Positions 1 to 6,110 of a stretch of 64,000 nucleotides of DNA are shown piece by piece. The position numbers were made by a program, and so were the translations under genes. Positions within the stretch are counted from its first letter, which is position 1, and the number at the start of each line of letters is the position of its first letter. The stretch is from Vibrio sp. HB236076 (GTDB lineage Bacteria > Pseudomonadota > Gammaproteobacteria > Enterobacterales > Vibrionaceae): contig NZ_CP162602.1 of the NCBI RefSeq assembly GCF_040957575.1, forward strand, positions 434,001 to 498,000, written 5' to 3'. The notes under the pieces are model-generated. The model saw only the letters and a program-made list of their open reading frames with translations. It ran no database searches and was not told the origin of the DNA.

Positions 1-1480
1 TGCACTTGTTGGTGAACAATGGCAGTCCACACAAGGTCCGGTGTTGACGAAAAAAAATCCCGCCACGGGAGAGACGATTTGGCAAGGGGTTCACAGCGAC
101 TCAGACACTGTCGATAACGCGGTACAGAGCGCAAGAGTAGCGTTTATCTCTTGGTCTCTGTTGCCATTAGAGCAGAGACTGGCGGTAATCAAGGCATTTG
201 CACAGCAACTGGAACAACACAAACAAGCCCTTGCGAAGATCATCAGTCAAGAAACAGGTAAGCCTTTGTGGGAGAGTGGTACCGAAGTACAAGCCATGAT
301 AAACAAGGTGGAGATATCCATTGAGGCGTATCATCAGCGCACCGGACAGTGTGTAACGGCAATGGCCGACGGTCAGGCTGTGATACGCCATCGGCCACAT
401 GGTGTCATGGCCGTTTTTGGTCCCTATAACTTTCCCGGTCATTTACCCAATGGCCACATTATTCCCGCACTGATTGCCGGTAACTGCATAGTATTTAAAC
501 CCAGTGAACTCACGCCTTGGACGGCACAGTTTACTCTAGAGATGTGGCAAAACGCAGGCTTGCCCTGTGGCGTGATTAATCTTGTCCAAGGAGGAGGACA
601 GACTGGTCAAGAGTTGGCCAGTCACCGGCTCGTCGATGGGTTGCTGTTTACTGGCAGTGCCAATACCGGCTATCAATTGCATCAGCAACTGTCGACCCAG
701 CCAGACAAAATACTGGCTTTGGAAATGGGTGGAAACAATGCCTTAGTCATCGACAATTTTTCAGATATTGATGCCGTTGTTCATTTAATTGTTCAATCCA
801 GCTTTATTTCTGCGGGTCAACGTTGTACTTGTGCGCGCCGTTTGTTGATTAAACAAGGAGCTCAAGGGGATGCGTTAGTGGAACGCCTTGTTGAGGTAAC
901 CCGAGCGATTCAAGTGGGTCGTTGGAATGAAGAGCCACAACCCTTTATGGGGCCGGTTATTTCCAAGCAGGCGGCAGAGCGCTTAATGGCGGTACAAGAA
1001 GGTTTGATTCAACAAGGTGCAAGCGTTTTGTTAGCAATGGAACATCGAGAACCTGAGCTCGCTTTTGTGACCCCGGGTATTTTAGATGTCTCTAAGCTTG
1101 ATAATGCTGCAGATGAGGAATACTTTGGCCCACTTTTGATGATCAAGCGCTATCAGCAGTTTGACCAAGCGATTGAGGAGGCAAACAACACGCGATTTGG
1201 CTTGTCAGCTGGCTTGGTTAGTGAATCTCGCAGTCAATACGAGTACTTTTCTGCGCGGATTCGAGCTGGAATCGTTAATTGGAACAAACCGTTAACTGGC
1301 GCGTCGAGTCGTGCCCCATTTGGCGGGGTTGGTGCGTCGGGTAATCATCGCCCGAGCGCCTATTACGCCGCGGATTACTGCGCCTGGCCAATGGCCAGTA
1401 TCGAATCTCAATACGTTAGCCTACCCAGTCAATTAGCACCTGGCCTAACATTGTTCCCATTACCAGGAGAGTCAGAATGA
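1..1480 (+). CDS. astD: succinylglutamate-semialdehyde dehydrogenase AstD, 5' end cut by window edge
   Basis: NAD-dependent oxidation of N-succinylglutamate semialdehyde to succinylglutamate, fourth step of the AST arginine-catabolic pathway, cytoplasmic. The reading frame is already open at base 2 and gives ALVGEQWQSTQG before the first internal GTG at 41; this aligns with the N-terminal strand of Escherichia coli AstD, so the true start lies upstream of the window and the GTG is not the start. Visible aldehyde dehydrogenase motifs: FGPYNFPGHLPNGH, the cofactor loop FTGSANTG, the general-base Glu in LEMGGNN and the catalytic Cys in GQRCTCARR, then the C-terminal PFGGVGASGNHRPSA. The stop overlaps the astB start by 4 bp (ATGA), so the two are translationally coupled. 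Identification is very secure. Confidence 0.96.
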   Translation, partial: ALVGEQWQSTQGPVLTKKNPATGETIWQGVHSDSDTVDNAVQSARVAFISWSLLPLEQRLAVIKAFAQQLEQHKQALAKIISQETGKPLWESGTEVQAMINKVEISIEAYHQRTGQCVTAMADGQAVIRHRPHGVMAVFGPYNFPGHLPNGHIIPALIAGNCIVFKPSELTPWTAQFTLEMWQNAGLPCGVINLVQGGGQTGQELASHRLVDGLLFTGSANTGYQLHQQLSTQPDKILALEMGGNNALVIDNFSDIDAVVHLIVQSSFISAGQRCTCARRLLIKQGAQGDALVERLVEVTRAIQVGRWNEEPQPFMGPVISKQAAERLMAVQEGLIQQGASVLLAMEHREPELAFVTPGILDVSKLDNAADEEYFGPLLMIKRYQQFDQAIEEANNTRFGLSAGLVSESRSQYEYFSARIRAGIVNWNKPLTGASSRAPFGGVGASGNHRPSAYYAADYCAWPMASIESQYVSLPSQLAPGLTLFPLPGESE

Positions 1481-2832
1481 GTACGGAAGCCAATTTTGAT
1501 GGATTGGTCGGCCCCACACACCACTATGCGGGGTTATCACACGGTAATATTGCCTCGACGGCCAATGTAAGAGCGGTCTCAAACCCAAAACTGGCGGCGC
1601 TACAGGGGCTAAAAAAAATGAAAGCGCTTCACGACATGGGGTATGTGCAAGGAATACTGCCTCCCCAGGAGCGCCCGTGCATTGAGGTCTTAAATCAGCT
1701 CGGCTTTTCGGCCAACAATGACGCATCATTATTAGCCAAGGTACATAAATTTCATCCTCAATTACTTTCTGCAGTCAGCTCGGCTTCGTCAATGTGGGTG
1801 GCCAATGCGGCGACGGTTTCTCCATCCGCTGATACGCGAGATGGCAAAGTGCACTTTAGTGTAGCGAACCTCAACAATAAATTTCACCGTTCTATTGAAG
1901 CGAAAGCAACAGAGGCGGCGTTAAAAGCCACCTTTAATGATTCCAATCATTTTGTTATTCATTCGGCACTGCCACAACAGGCGTTATTTGGCGATGAAGG
2001 TGCGGCGAATCACAATCGATTATCGGTCGATGACCGGCAGCCCGGCGTCGAAGTGTTTGTCTATGGGCGCAGTCAAACTCAACCTGGCCCACGTCATTAT
2101 CCGGCGAGACAAACGCTGGAAGCGTGTCGCTCTATTGCTTATCGGCATGGGCTTTTAGAGGATGACACTCTATTTTTGCAACAAAATCCAGACGTCATCG
2201 ATCAAGGCGTATTTCACAATGACGTTATTTCGGTCACGAATGGCCCGGTTTGGTTTTATCACCAAGAGGCTTTTGTCGATCAAACCTCGGTTTTTTCTAC
2301 CATCGAGCAGCGACTGGCAAAACAAGGGAGCAAATTTCAACCAATAGAGGTTCCCACAGAGGCAGTGAGTGTTCAAGATGCGGTTGAAAGTTACTTATTT
2401 AACAGTCAGCTACTGAGCAAAGCCAATGGAAGAATGCTGTTATTGGTACCTGCAGAGACGCAAGCAAATCGCAACGTTGCCGCTTACTTACAACATTTGA
2501 CTGCATCGAGTGATTGTATCGATCAAGTGATGGTGATGGATTTACGTGAAAGCATGCGCAATGGCGGCGGGCCGGCTTGTTTGCGGTTACGGGTTGTGTT
2601 GACCGAGCAAGAGCGAATGGCAATGAATCCATCGAGCATCATGAACAATGAGCAATATCAGCGCTTAGTGAACTGGGTTGAAAAGCATTATCGCGATCGA
2701 TTAAGTGAAGAGGATTTACTCGATCCACAATTGCTTGAGGAAAATCGAGTGGCGCTTGATCAACTGACACAAATACTGAATCTAGGATCTTTGTATCCGT
2801 TTCAACAAAATGGAAACAAGTCGAAGTCATAA
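1477..2832 (+). CDS. astB: N-succinylarginine dihydrolase AstB
   Basis: Hydrolyses N2-succinylarginine to succinylornithine, CO2 and ammonia, the second AST step. It has 451 residues, close to the usual 440-450. It opens with NFDGLVGPTHHYAGLS as in the enterobacterial enzyme. The catalytic triad of the amidinotransferase-like fold is visible: Glu174 in GDEGAANHNR, His247 in GVFHNDV and Cys368 in NGGGPACLRLR. The start ATG overlaps the astD stop; astE follows 12 bp later. The gene order D-B-E indicates one arginine catabolic operon whose astC/astA part must lie upstream of the window. No promoter is visible inside. Confidence 0.97.
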   Translation: MSTEANFDGLVGPTHHYAGLSHGNIASTANVRAVSNPKLAALQGLKKMKALHDMGYVQGILPPQERPCIEVLNQLGFSANNDASLLAKVHKFHPQLLSAVSSASSMWVANAATVSPSADTRDGKVHFSVANLNNKFHRSIEAKATEAALKATFNDSNHFVIHSALPQQALFGDEGAANHNRLSVDDRQPGVEVFVYGRSQTQPGPRHYPARQTLEACRSIAYRHGLLEDDTLFLQQNPDVIDQGVFHNDVISVTNGPVWFYHQEAFVDQTSVFSTIEQRLAKQGSKFQPIEVPTEAVSVQDAVESYLFNSQLLSKANGRMLLLVPAETQANRNVAAYLQHLTASSDCIDQVMVMDLRESMRNGGGPACLRLRVVLTEQERMAMNPSSIMNNEQYQRLVNWVEKHYRDRLSEEDLLDPQLLEENRVALDQLTQILNLGSLYPFQQNGNKSKS

Positions 2833-2844
2833 GAGGAGTCCCCC

Positions 2845-3813
2845 GTGGATTATGATCTCAAATCGTGGTTACGTTCAGGGCAAGTTGAGCCAAGCATAGG
2901 TGAAAATGCACAGTTAGCCTGGCATTGTCATGCAAAGGGCATCATCGAGTTTACACCAAGAACGGCCTCTACCAAGTACTTAGTGCTTTCCGCCGGGATC
3001 CACGGTAATGAAACGGCGCCGATAGAGATCTTGTTTTCGTTTATGATGGATTTGCTCAAGGGTAAGTTGGCGCTGCGACAAAATGTGTTAATCGTGTTCG
3101 GTAATTTCGATGCCATGATAGCCGGTCAGCGCTTTATAAAGTTTGATATGAACCGCTTATTTTTAGCGCCCACGCAGACAAAATTAGGTGGCGAATACCA
3201 GCGCGTTGTGGCAATCAAAGCTCAGGTCGAGAAGTTTATCATGCAAGCGAATGGTAACACGTGTTGGCACCTTGATATGCACACGGCGATTAGAGAGTCA
3301 TTGAAAGTAAAATTTGGTGTGCTACCCGATCACTGTGATAAATCGTCTGCATTTTACCGCTTGTTTTGCCATTGTGAGTTGAATGCGTTGGTGATCAATT
3401 CGGTGCCAAGTGGTACGTTTACATCTTGGACATGCCATCAATTAGGGGCGCTAAGTTGTACTTTAGAGTTGGGTAAAGCGTTGCCATTTGGTGAGAACAA
3501 GCTCGAACCATTCCAGTCGATAATCAAAGCCATCCAGCTTTTACTCACCGACGAATTGTCGAAAAGCGATACCTTACGAAACGTTGAACTTTTTACTGTC
3601 AAGCAAGTCCTTCACAAACAAAGCGAACAGTTTAGATTCACTGACCTCAAAGACACGGCGCCTAATTTCACGCCAATAGCCATGAATCACAAAGTTGCAC
3701 AAGACGGCGATTATGAATATTGGAACCAAGATGCTGGCGCATGTATTTTATTCCCTAATCCGAATGTTGCTGTCGGCCTGAGGGCGGGGATGATCATTGT
3801 GCCTTGTGACTAA
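2845..3813 (+). CDS. astE: succinylglutamate desuccinylase AstE
   Basis: Zinc-dependent hydrolysis of succinylglutamate to glutamate and succinate, last AST step. The start is GTG at 2845, supported by the Shine-Dalgarno AAGAGGAG at 2831-2838; the 322-residue length fits the family. Zinc ligands of the AstE/aspartoacylase peptidase-M14-like fold are visible: His53 and Glu56 in GIHGNE and His146 in HLDMHTAIR; the general base is probably Glu208 in TLELGKALPFG. The C-terminal LFPNPNVAVGLRAG also matches. It is the last gene of the ast operon. No terminator hairpin follows; instead the qrr array starts about 50 bp downstream on the opposite strand. Confidence 0.96.
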   Translation: MDYDLKSWLRSGQVEPSIGENAQLAWHCHAKGIIEFTPRTASTKYLVLSAGIHGNETAPIEILFSFMMDLLKGKLALRQNVLIVFGNFDAMIAGQRFIKFDMNRLFLAPTQTKLGGEYQRVVAIKAQVEKFIMQANGNTCWHLDMHTAIRESLKVKFGVLPDHCDKSSAFYRLFCHCELNALVINSVPSGTFTSWTCHQLGALSCTLELGKALPFGENKLEPFQSIIKAIQLLLTDELSKSDTLRNVELFTVKQVLHKQSEQFRFTDLKDTAPNFTPIAMNHKVAQDGDYEYWNQDAGACILFPNPNVAVGLRAGMIIVPCD

Positions 3814-3860
3814 AAAGAGTAAAAGGCATTGTTTATCATGATCTCTCGCGACTGGGAATT

Positions 3861-3925
3861 GCAACTTGTTTCAAATGTGCATTTTTGCTTTGCAAACCGT
3901 TATTTTATTTTGCCAAGCTTGGCAA
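3861..3925 (-). promoter_or_regulatory. orphan LuxO-type upstream activating region (remnant)
   Basis: This stretch repeats the segment that lies upstream of each qrr gene (GCAACTTGTTTCAA followed by TTTTATTTTGC-like boxes), displaced by exactly 341 bp from the copy at 4202. On the minus strand no -24/-12 promoter and no Qrr core follow it; astE ends only 47 bp away. It also contains a perfect 16-bp palindrome TTGCCAAGCTTGGCAA at 3910-3925. Seen: the repeat. Inferred: remnant of a further qrr unit whose RNA part was lost. Confidence 0.5.
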
Positions 3926-4005
3926 TGACCCATGGGAAGCAAGAGTGCGTTTGTTGCTAAAAGCAAGTTGGTTTTATGTTTGTCACTGCTACTTTGGGTA
4001 TCAAT

Positions 4006-4038
4006 AAAAAAGCGCCAACCCAGAGAATGGATTGGCGC
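4006..4038 (-). terminator. intrinsic terminator of qrr copy A
   Basis: On the minus strand GCGCCAATCC pairs with GGGTTGGCGC around a short loop and is followed by six T (plus-strand A 4006-4011). It is typical of the Hfq-binding 3' end of Qrr RNAs. Confidence 0.9.
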
Positions 4039-4110
4039 GTAATGTGTGAACAAAATTGGGTTCACTAACAACGTCAGTTGGCTAGGTGACCCTCGGCTTA
4101 ATAAGGGTCA
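4006..4110 (-). ncRNA. qrr: Qrr quorum regulatory small RNA (copy A)
   Basis: Hfq-dependent small RNA family that is activated by phosphorylated LuxO with sigma-54 at low cell density and controls the LuxR/HapR-type master regulator and other targets. On the minus strand the RNA begins TGACCC at 4110, forms stem-loop 1 (TGACCCT with AGGGTCA), then carries the family core CACCTAGCCAACTGACGTTG and TTAGTGAA, a second stem GTGAAC/GTTCAC, and an intrinsic terminator at 4012-4038 followed by six U. The length of about 105 nt fits known Qrr RNAs (about 95-110). The first base lies exactly 12 nt from the -12 C of a sigma-54 promoter. Identification by core sequence is secure; the copy number suffix cannot be assigned. 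Confidence 0.93.
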
Positions 4111-4121
4111 TTATTTAATAA

Positions 4122-4136
4122 GCATTAACCGTGCCA
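4122..4136 (-). promoter_or_regulatory. sigma-54 promoter of qrr copy A
   Basis: The minus strand reads TGGCAC-GGTTA-ATGC, against the sigma-54 consensus TGGCAC-N5-TTGC. The last C is 12 nt upstream of the proposed RNA 5' end at 4110, as expected for -12. Confidence 0.88.
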
Positions 4137-4223
4137 GTTTTTTATTTATCCCTATCTTATTGTTTTTAAATTGCTTTTTTTATTTCTGTTGTCTATGTAT
4201 AGCAACTTGTTTCAATTACTTGT

Positions 4224-4255
4224 TTTTATTTTGCAATATAAATTTCATTTTGCAA
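4224..4255 (-). promoter_or_regulatory. two LuxO-type boxes upstream of qrr copy A
   Basis: The published LuxO site is TTGCA-WWW-TGCAA. TTTCATTTTGCAA at 4243-4255 matches 12 of 13 positions and TTTTATTTTGCAA at 4224-4236 matches 11 of 13. They lie about 115-145 bp upstream of the RNA start, a normal distance for sigma-54 activators. Confidence 0.7.
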
Positions 4256-4347
4256 TACAGTAAAAAGGGCACTTGCATTACAACAGGGGAGGGGACTGAA
4301 AAGTGGCGTGTTTTATTGAGTTTTATCTGGGTCTAGGTATAAAGCAT

Positions 4348-4380
4348 AAAAAAGCGCCAACCCATAAAATGGATTGGCGC
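4348..4380 (-). terminator. intrinsic terminator of qrr copy B
   Basis: Minus-strand GCGCCAATCC / GGGTTGGCGC hairpin with loop ATTTTAT, followed by six T (plus-strand A 4348-4353). Confidence 0.9.
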
Positions 4381-4452
4381 GTAACATGTGAACAAAATAG
4401 GGTTCACTAACAACGTCAGTTGGCTAGGTGACCCTCGGCTTAATAAGGGTCA
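4348..4452 (-). ncRNA. qrr: Qrr quorum regulatory small RNA (copy B)
   Basis: Second complete qrr gene, 342 bp upstream of copy A on the same strand. The 5' part from TGACCC at 4452 through the core GTCACCTAGCCAACTGACG and TTAGTGAAC is identical to copy A; differences are confined to the loop of stem 2, the linker before the terminator (ACATGTTAC against ACACATTAC) and the terminator loop. It has its own sigma-54 promoter, LuxO-type boxes and terminator, so both copies look functional and independently transcribed. Because the seed region is identical, the two should share targets; dosage or additive control is the likely consequence. That last point is inference. Confidence 0.93.
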
Positions 4453-4463
4453 TTATCTATTAG

Positions 4464-4478
4464 GCATTAACTATGCCA
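4464..4478 (-). promoter_or_regulatory. sigma-54 promoter of qrr copy B
   Basis: The minus strand reads TGGCAT-AGTTA-ATGC with the same spacing as in copy A; the -12 C is 12 nt from the RNA start at 4452. Confidence 0.86.
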
Positions 4479-4563
4479 ACTTTTCGCCGACCCTATCTAT
4501 ATGTTTTTTAAGGCAATCTTTATTTTTTGTTTTGGTGTATAGCAACTGATTTCAAAGGTTTGT

Positions 4564-4594
4564 TTTTATTTTGCAGTGATTTTTTATTTTGCAA
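4564..4594 (-). promoter_or_regulatory. two LuxO-type boxes upstream of qrr copy B
   Basis: TTTTATTTTGCAA at 4582-4594 (11 of 13 to TTGCA-WWW-TGCAA) and TTTTATTTTGCAG at 4564-4576 (10 of 13) occupy the same place relative to the promoter as in copy A. Confidence 0.65.
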
Positions 4595-4636
4595 AATCCG
4601 GTGTGAAAAAGTGGCTGTTTTAGAGGTGAGGTTCCA

Positions 4637-4740: not shown

Positions 4741-4802
4741 GATTACGTTGGCGGCATAGGTGACCCTGGCGAGCAGGGCCACTATTCATTAAAGAACATC
4801 CG
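4741..4802 (-). other. diverged Qrr-like element directly after pncB
   Basis: On the minus strand, immediately past the pncB stop, a stem AGTGGCCCT / AGGGTCACC is followed by TATGCCGCCAACGTAATCG, which resembles the Qrr stem 1 and core (AGGGTCACC TAGCCAACTGACG) and lies 332 bp from the copy B core, close to the array period. No sigma-54 promoter precedes it and no intrinsic terminator follows, so it is probably a decayed copy or part of the pncB 3' UTR. Confidence 0.35.
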
Positions 4803-6110
4803 CTATGCGGCGATGTACAAGCGCCTTTTTTGATATGGCGCTTTTCGTAGTGTTTCGCACAGTTGCTCTAGGTTAAGATCGAGATTAAACGTTTTCTTCA
4901 CATGGGCGAGGAAAATAGGGTCTTCGCACATTGCCTTTTTGGGCTCATCACTGATTTTAGCCACGGGTCTGTGCTGACACTCAACCAGTTTGACCACGAT
5001 AGAGAGCGGGTGATAAAGCTCCCCTTCATTATTATAATACTCCCCTAAATCATTGGTTAAAAAGGTACCAATACCGAAGGACACGTTAACGCGTCCCGCA
5101 AAGTATTGGCAAATATCGAGTGCTTGATCAAAATTGAGACCGTCGGAAAAGATGAATAATTTTGATTTTGGATCAATTCCCAATTGTTGATAATGCGCGA
5201 TTAACTTGTCTCCCCAAGTGTATGGGCAGCCCGAGTCATGCCTTACACCATCATAAGCTTTGGCAAGCTGAGGAGAAAAATCGTTAAGGAATGCATCAAT
5301 CGAAATGGTGTCCGTTGGCGCAATCGCAAGTTGACCATTAAAGGCATTGAGCCATTGTTTCAATGCCTGTTGTTGGGAATCTGCCACGTGACTAAACGCT
5401 TGGTGTCCCATAAACCATTCGTGGGCAATGGTGCCTATCGGTGTTAAGTCATATTTTCTGGCGAAATGAATATTACTGGTGCCGACGAGGCACTGAGGTA
5501 TTTCCTTGGTCAACACTGACAGAATGATATCTTGAGCTTGTGAAGAAAATCGACGTCTCGTGCCCATTTCTGTGAGAGAAAAGTTGTCGATGTTTCTTTT
5601 CATTAATTCTGATTTGAGGTGTTGTACTTTGTCATCAATCACGTTTTTGATGTGCTGCGCTGAAACGGAGTGCCAATATTGACGGCTTCTGACTTCAGAA
5701 ATAATGGCCATGACTAAGGTCTCATACAGAATGGTATCACGCCAAGCGCCGCGAATACTGATGCTGAGTTGCTTGCGATCATGGTGTTCTACAAAGCCCA
5801 GTTGTACCTGCTCACTCGGGGTAAAGCGGAAATAGTGCAAGGTATTGAGAAAGCTTGTTTTAAGGTGAGGCGCGTGTTGTTTTAGGTAGTCTATATCGTC
5901 AGGTGAAAAGGATAATCCAGCCAGCGATTGAATTTGGCTATGAATGTCTGAAATGAGAGGGCTGAGATCTTCATCGGAGCGAACAATCAGTTCGTATCGC
6001 ACTTCGACATCGGGGTAAAAGGTGTGAATAGCCTGCATCATATTGATTTTGTAGGCGTCCAAATCTAACAGACTTTGTATGATTGATGGTGAGAATACTG
6101 TTGCACACAT
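4803..6110 (-). CDS. pncB: nicotinate phosphoribosyltransferase PncB
   Basis: Converts nicotinate and PRPP (with ATP) to nicotinate mononucleotide, the entry step of the Preiss-Handler NAD salvage route; cytoplasmic. It has 435 residues, somewhat longer than the usual 400. Motifs: LDLDAYKINMMQA near the N-terminus, the phosphorylated-histidine loop GTIAHEWFMGHQAF (His230), DSGCPYTWGDKLI and the PRPP/phosphate region FSDGLNFDQAL and FGIGTFLTNDLG. It diverges from nrtR, and an imperfect palindrome at 6141-6159 sits 31 bp before its start, consistent with repression by NrtR. Downstream is the qrr array on the same strand without a clear terminator between, so read-through into the array is possible. 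Confidence 0.95.
   Translation of the reverse strand: MCATVFSPSIIQSLLDLDAYKINMMQAIHTFYPDVEVRYELIVRSDEDLSPLISDIHSQIQSLAGLSFSPDDIDYLKQHAPHLKTSFLNTLHYFRFTPSEQVQLGFVEHHDRKQLSISIRGAWRDTILYETLVMAIISEVRSRQYWHSVSAQHIKNVIDDKVQHLKSELMKRNIDNFSLTEMGTRRRFSSQAQDIILSVLTKEIPQCLVGTSNIHFARKYDLTPIGTIAHEWFMGHQAFSHVADSQQQALKQWLNAFNGQLAIAPTDTISIDAFLNDFSPQLAKAYDGVRHDSGCPYTWGDKLIAHYQQLGIDPKSKLFIFSDGLNFDQALDICQYFAGRVNVSFGIGTFLTNDLGEYYNNEGELYHPLSIVVKLVECQHRPVAKISDEPKKAMCEDPIFLAHVKKTFNLDLNLEQLCETLRKAPYQKRRLYIAA

Follow-up and report, generated by a model that had tools for sequence, protein, structure and literature searches.

Tandem Qrr small RNA units and a third enhancer-like module between pncB and an astE-like gene in Vibrio sp. 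HB236076

Two qrr genes between pncB and astE

The window is a stretch of 64 kb from the genome of Vibrio sp. HB236076 (G000 in our genome list), and coordinates refer to it unless another source is named. A covariance search with the Qrr model RF00378, using a cut-off of 50 bits, finds two complete genes, both on the minus strand. Copy A (4347–4452, read from 4452 to 4347) is next to pncB and is labelled "promoter-distal from astE". It scores 92.8 bits (E-value 2.7e-16). Copy B (4005–4110, read from 4110 to 4005) scores 92.1 bits (E-value 3.8e-16). They lie head to tail with a register of 342 bp, in a single intergenic region of contig 2. On one side of this region is pncB, coding for nicotinate phosphoribosyltransferase (4803–6110, minus strand, TIGR01514 547.9 bits), which has at most about 67% identity over its full length to the relatives listed. 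The convergent neighbour on the other side is an astE-like gene for succinylglutamate desuccinylase (2845–3813, plus strand). It passes the subfamily cut-off (NF003706, 314.1 bits) and is below the cut-off of the equivalog TIGR03242 (284.5 bits, cut-off 305.65). The genes astD, astB and astE stand side by side at 41–3813 and end convergently to the qrr pair; identity of this astE to the relatives listed is 42% or less.

The two RNAs are identical in nucleotides 1–50 and differ at five of the remaining 56 positions. Each of them lies in a 139-bp block that is repeated at the 342 bp spacing with 91% identity, which is above that of the flanks. Both genes have a sigma-54 (–24/–12) site on the minus strand, TGGCATAGTTAATGC at 4464–4478 for copy A and TGGCACGGTTAATGC at 4122–4136 for copy B. 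These sites have the form TGGCA-N6-ATGC, with GG at –25/–24 and GC at –13/–12 from the RNA start of the model. The pattern alone is not rare, since there are 3 matches in the 64 kb where 1.09 are expected, and 11 of 100 shuffled sequences reach 3. The weight of the sites comes from their position relative to both RNAs. Intrinsic terminators, also on the minus strand, consist of a stem and a T run: the stem has 12 pairs in copy A (4354–4380) and 11 pairs in copy B (4012–4038). Two terminator-type sites are found in 1.2 kb, and shuffled sequences give a mean of 1.2.

LuxO-type boxes are found at about –145 to –112, and are degenerate when compared with the consensus TTGCAW3TGCAA given in PMC11443567. 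Enhancer module A (4538–4600, minus strand) has boxes at 4582–4594, with two mismatches, and at 4564–4576, with three. In enhancer module B (4196–4258, minus strand) they are found at 4243–4255, with one mismatch, and at 4224–4236, with two. The best box is therefore at –142 for copy A (two mismatches) and at –145 for copy B (one mismatch). Degenerate boxes, for example with two mismatches, are also present upstream of several other Qrr genes in our set of 51.

These results agree with the original prediction of two complete qrr genes in tandem, 342 bp apart and next to pncB, with an identical 5' half and core, their own sigma-54 promoters with the –12 C at the expected distance, and terminators. 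The range it gave, 4006–4452, needs a small correction at the outer edge, which is 4005, and the strand was absent from it. The LuxO-type boxes it announced are present, with an imperfect match to the consensus. Judged by their sequence, both copies are genuine Qrr genes, each with a control region of its own, and their RNAs are ordinary members of the known Qrr family.

A third enhancer-like module

Downstream of copy B there is a third module of the LuxO-type enhancer kind, module C (about 3857–3918, minus strand), which lacks both a promoter and an RNA and had been missed in the original prediction. Its pair of boxes is in register with those of A and B: the distal boxes start at 4582, 4243 and 3903, in steps of 339 and 340 bp. 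Identity of module C to enhancers A and B is 67 and 68%, gaps counted. None of 1000 dinucleotide shuffles matches A or B equally well, and for a wider stretch around the module 1 and 0 of 1000 shuffles are as good, for A and B, respectively. When both strands of the 64 kb are scanned and A and B themselves are set aside, module C is the top match, with a score of 71, the next one being 57. The string TTTTATTTTGC occurs four times in the 64 kb, always inside the array, where 0.29 occurrences are expected.

No sigma-54 site, allowing two mismatches, is found after module C as far as position 3700, which is already within astE. The stretches between units (A/B compared with B/C) align no better than shuffled sequences, 85 of 500 being as good, so that the third unit is recognized by its enhancer module only. 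These data suggest that the array once had at least three units. Module C is probably a third unit truncated at the astE side, down to its enhancer. It is possible, if rather doubtful, that module C is no remnant, and is either a working enhancer which assists copy B from its downstream side or a chance resemblance in AT-rich DNA. Sigma-54 enhancers are able to act from either side, and module C has been preserved better than its surroundings, while the inter-unit stretches do not align; a chance match is opposed by the shuffles, none of which was as good in 1000. A role of its own for module C would be compatible with its origin as a remnant of a third unit.

We have also considered a candidate Qrr remnant directly behind pncB (4753–4770, minus strand, GCCAGGGTCACCTATGCC). 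It is a weak candidate: equal scores are reached by 6 of 1000 shuffles and, though the sequence is core-like, the covariance search gives no match there up to an E-value of 10. That it is a decayed further qrr copy is only possible.

Qrr genes in this and other Vibrio genomes

The genome of HB236076 (3.88 Mb, two contigs) contains three Qrr genes over the cut-off, all of them on contig 2, the smaller one. The third is a single copy at C2:348537, with a polyprenyl-phosphate transporter gene on one side and a malT-type gene on the other. Two other genomes (G254 and G193) also have a qrr adjoining a polyprenyl-phosphate transporter gene. A fourth candidate, at C2:638855, has been rejected: it is under the cut-off (29.5 bits), it coincides in part with the end of an apparent transporter gene and with that gene's terminator, and inspection by eye reveals no sigma-54 site.

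The quorum-sensing pathway includes a LuxO equivalog (852.4 bits, cut-off 800), LuxU (140.9 bits, cut-off 140) and a HapR/LuxR-type protein with 344.9 bits, just under the cut-off of 350. At –18 to –10, the hapR-type mRNA carries TTGGCAAGG, opposite CCUAGCCAA in the RNA. Pairing over the ribosome site of this mRNA is predicted at –32.1 kcal/mol for both A and B, compared with a mean of –21.7 (sd 3.4) for 300 shuffled targets. At least one of these reached –32.8, below the real value, so that the pairing is supportive only. Since the predicted pairing of A and B is alike, both genes should act alike.

The pair is not at the place of qrr1, between luxO and uvrB, but between pncB and astE. The luxO–uvrB interval of HB236076 (186 bp) contains no Qrr, an absence which the original prediction had also missed. 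A passage in PMC8043402 states that species with several qrr genes always encode qrr1 at luxO, and passages in PMC3352281 and PMC11443567 consider qrr1 at luxO as ancestral, the other genes having spread on the small chromosome. LuxO reaches its threshold in 204 of the 227 Vibrio genomes, and among the luxO loci listed we have compared 150 stretches from 149 genomes (G261 is represented twice; G115, whose luxO is at a contig end, is left out). Absence at luxO means that no 22-nt core is found with up to five mismatches. Ten genomes have no Qrr core upstream of luxO: G000, G197, G238, G122, G273, G158, G207, G252, G292 and G131. The stretches concerned, in numerical order, are L114, L138, L141, L143, L175, L176, L260, L281, L282 and L292. 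In the nine genomes other than HB236076, the covariance search places all their Qrr genes, two to four in each, on contigs other than that of luxO. All ten retain a LuxO box upstream of luxO with 0–1 mismatch, that of L292 being the best of the whole stretch, without anchor or shuffles. This box is perhaps used for feedback on luxO. The ten genomes in 149 correct the "always" of the passage in PMC8043402. They are natural deletions, in which control specific for qrr1 must be absent or moved elsewhere. In listings of open-licence papers we have found no description of an absent qrr1.

Tight pairs are rare. Exact 26-nt cores separated by 312–372 bp are found in one of 227 Vibrio genomes, HB236076. 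Pairs on the same strand less than 1 kb apart are present in four genomes (G000, G228, G311 and G119), at three loci, among the 79 with complete Qrr positions. These 79 genomes are HB236076, 10 with six to nine copies, 26 with five copies and 42 chosen as pncB relatives or for their lack of qrr1; they were chosen, not taken at random, so that 4/79 is no rate for the genus. The pair had been called unusual, which stands; it is not unique, given the pairs in G228, G311 and G119, with spacings of about 399, 395 and 272 bp. Six more genomes (G161, G162, G232, G235, G255 and G302) have copies on the same strand at distances of 1.4–3.5 kb, with intervening or neighbouring genes. Other pncB and astE loci do not present this arrangement: a qrr is found at none of 59 pncB loci (some species occur in both the named and the unnamed set) and at none of 29 astE loci, in flanks of up to 6 kb for 30 named pncB loci and about 1.5 kb for the rest. 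The pncB–astE junction is not seen among the other loci compared.

The pairs in G228 (L306, 4428/4029) and G311 (L307, 4367/4762) are head to tail at a similar distance, as in HB236076. They are found at a different locus, polyprenyl-phosphate transporter/malT, where HB236076 keeps its third, single copy. Their first copy carries a sigma-54 site, but the 220 bp upstream of this copy contain no LuxO half-site, and the sole enhancer is between the copies, so that two promoters may share it. The G119 pair has an ISNCY-type transposase in its vicinity. The first stem is missing from the first copy of this pair, and no recognized sigma-54 site or LuxO half-site is found in either copy. Genomes with seven to nine copies (for example G302, G232, G162 and G255) have several qrr genes on the same strand within a few kb, with enhancers of similar wording. 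In these four genomes the copies are 1.4–3.4 kb apart, with genes between them in the stretch examined (L082), whereas the distance in HB236076 is 342 bp.

Up to nine Qrr matches per genome are found at an E-value of 0.01 or less (G255, G235, G161, G232, G302 and G186), not all of them over the cut-off. This exceeds the one to five qrr genes which a passage in PMC8043402 describes as common. Some Qrr genes are found in plasmids: two examples, both adjoining umuD and a Y-family polymerase gene, are in Vibrio vulnificus plasmid pFORC54 (32.6 kb; L327, 2961–3064) and in Vibrio navarrensis plasmid pVN20-VB00237 (180 kb, typed as conjugative; L329, 2962–3063). Further BLAST matches are found in plasmid records of V. 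cidicii, V. tritonius, V. alginolyticus and V. parahaemolyticus. Copy B has no megablast match in 50,697 phage records. Genome G264 has three Qrr RNAs in stretch L309 (1840–1948, 4569–4677 and 9615–9724; 94.5, 94.7 and 88.7 bits), one of which directly adjoins a phage-type repressor (CI-like/S24). They present no recognized sigma-54 sites and no clear LuxO boxes, so that their control must differ.

Compared with Qrr1–4 or Qrr1–5 of well-studied Vibrio (RF00378), the genes of HB236076 are alike in RNA sequence and structure, sigma-54 promoter and terminator, and have LuxO-type boxes upstream, here with an imperfect match to the consensus. The difference is in their arrangement: two genes 342 bp apart, with a third module, at a pncB–astE site, and none at luxO. 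Extra copies of regulatory small RNAs are also reported to arise by duplication in other RNA families, such as csrB in Vibrio tasmaniensis (PMC6262261) and rsmX in Pseudomonas (PMC7911923). We have found no description of tandem qrr genes, or of more than five, in listings of open-licence papers, where the combination of tandem units, a leftover enhancer and no qrr1 is a variant without match.

Age and probable working of the array

In Vibrio, Qrr RNA signals a sparse population. At low cell density, LuxO-phosphate activates the sigma-54 transcription of qrr genes, whose RNAs, together with Hfq, target luxR/hapR and other mRNAs. Our preferred reading, to which we give a probability of about 80%, is an array of quorum-sensing small RNA units of about 342 bp in tandem, each with a LuxO enhancer, a sigma-54 promoter, a Qrr RNA and a terminator. 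Of these units, two are complete, and one more has probably been cut down to its enhancer, next to astE; the genes would act redundantly, the duplication would not be recent and the qrr set would be wholly on the smaller replicon. The RNAs, the promoters, the terminators, the three enhancer-like modules, luxO–luxU elsewhere and the lack of qrr1 at luxO can be read directly from the sequence. At low cell density, LuxO-phosphate would bind the enhancers, loop to the sigma-54 polymerase and fire both promoters. The two RNAs, the same over nucleotides 1–50, would then share their targets and, with Hfq, act on them redundantly. They could cover the ribosome site of the luxR/hapR-type mRNA, the first of these targets. 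The array and the third copy would do the work which qrr1 shares in most other Vibrio.

A bolder version, which we regard as unlikely, makes the array one composite LuxO switch. The three modules, within about 750 bp, would jointly act on the two sigma-54 promoters, any module firing either gene. The low-density signal would be steeper and louder than that of scattered copies, and the array would have replaced the lost qrr1. Were this true, the G228/G311 pair, in which a single enhancer seems to serve both promoters, would represent the same design a second time, independently.

It is also improbable that only one copy works and that copy A, which has the poorer LuxO boxes, is decaying. The best box has two mismatches in A and one in B, but the RNA, the sigma-54 site and the terminator of copy A are all intact, and boxes with two mismatches are common upstream of other Qrr genes in the set, as noted above.

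The original prediction had taken the pair as a recent dosage increase or a case of concerted evolution. The flanking control DNA argues against a recent duplication: identity between A and B, gaps counted, is 74% in the promoter, 65% in the spacer and 73% in the enhancer. In a tree of 51 rows, built from promoter plus RNA of Qrr genes of HB236076 and others, A and B are sisters (support 100/99), and so are products of one tandem duplication; the end branch of each measures 0.17 changes per column. Neither the flanking identity nor these branches suggest that the duplication is recent. It would have followed, or accompanied, the complete move of the qrr set to the smaller replicon. Selection on the RNA accounts for the identity of the two RNAs: the third copy (C2:348537), too, differs from copy A at only 1 of the first 50 nucleotides, and the 26-nt core is identical in 146 of 194 distinct Qrr-core stretches. 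Concerted evolution is therefore unneeded. It is thus quite improbable that a recent duplication, a fresh dosage increase, has been kept identical by gene conversion. The 139-bp block is more similar than its flanks, which speaks in favour of this, but the near-identity of neutral spacer is not seen, and the tight pair in G228/G311 exists without homogenizing, the downstream copies of both genomes grouping together in the tree (99/99). We have dropped gene conversion as the reason for RNA identity, given the diverged flanks and the third copy. A dosage increase as such is possible; with qrr1 gone, the net number of qrr genes is three. An assembly artefact may be practically discarded: only one genome holds this arrangement, but A and B differ throughout, with five differences in the RNA and about one fourth of the promoter, and the assembly has two contigs and is 100% complete.

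Closely spaced pairs, with LuxO enhancers that are shared or stacked, allow us to ask directly whether qrr copies are additive, share enhancers or back each other up. This bears on why Vibrio species retain several near-identical Qrr genes.
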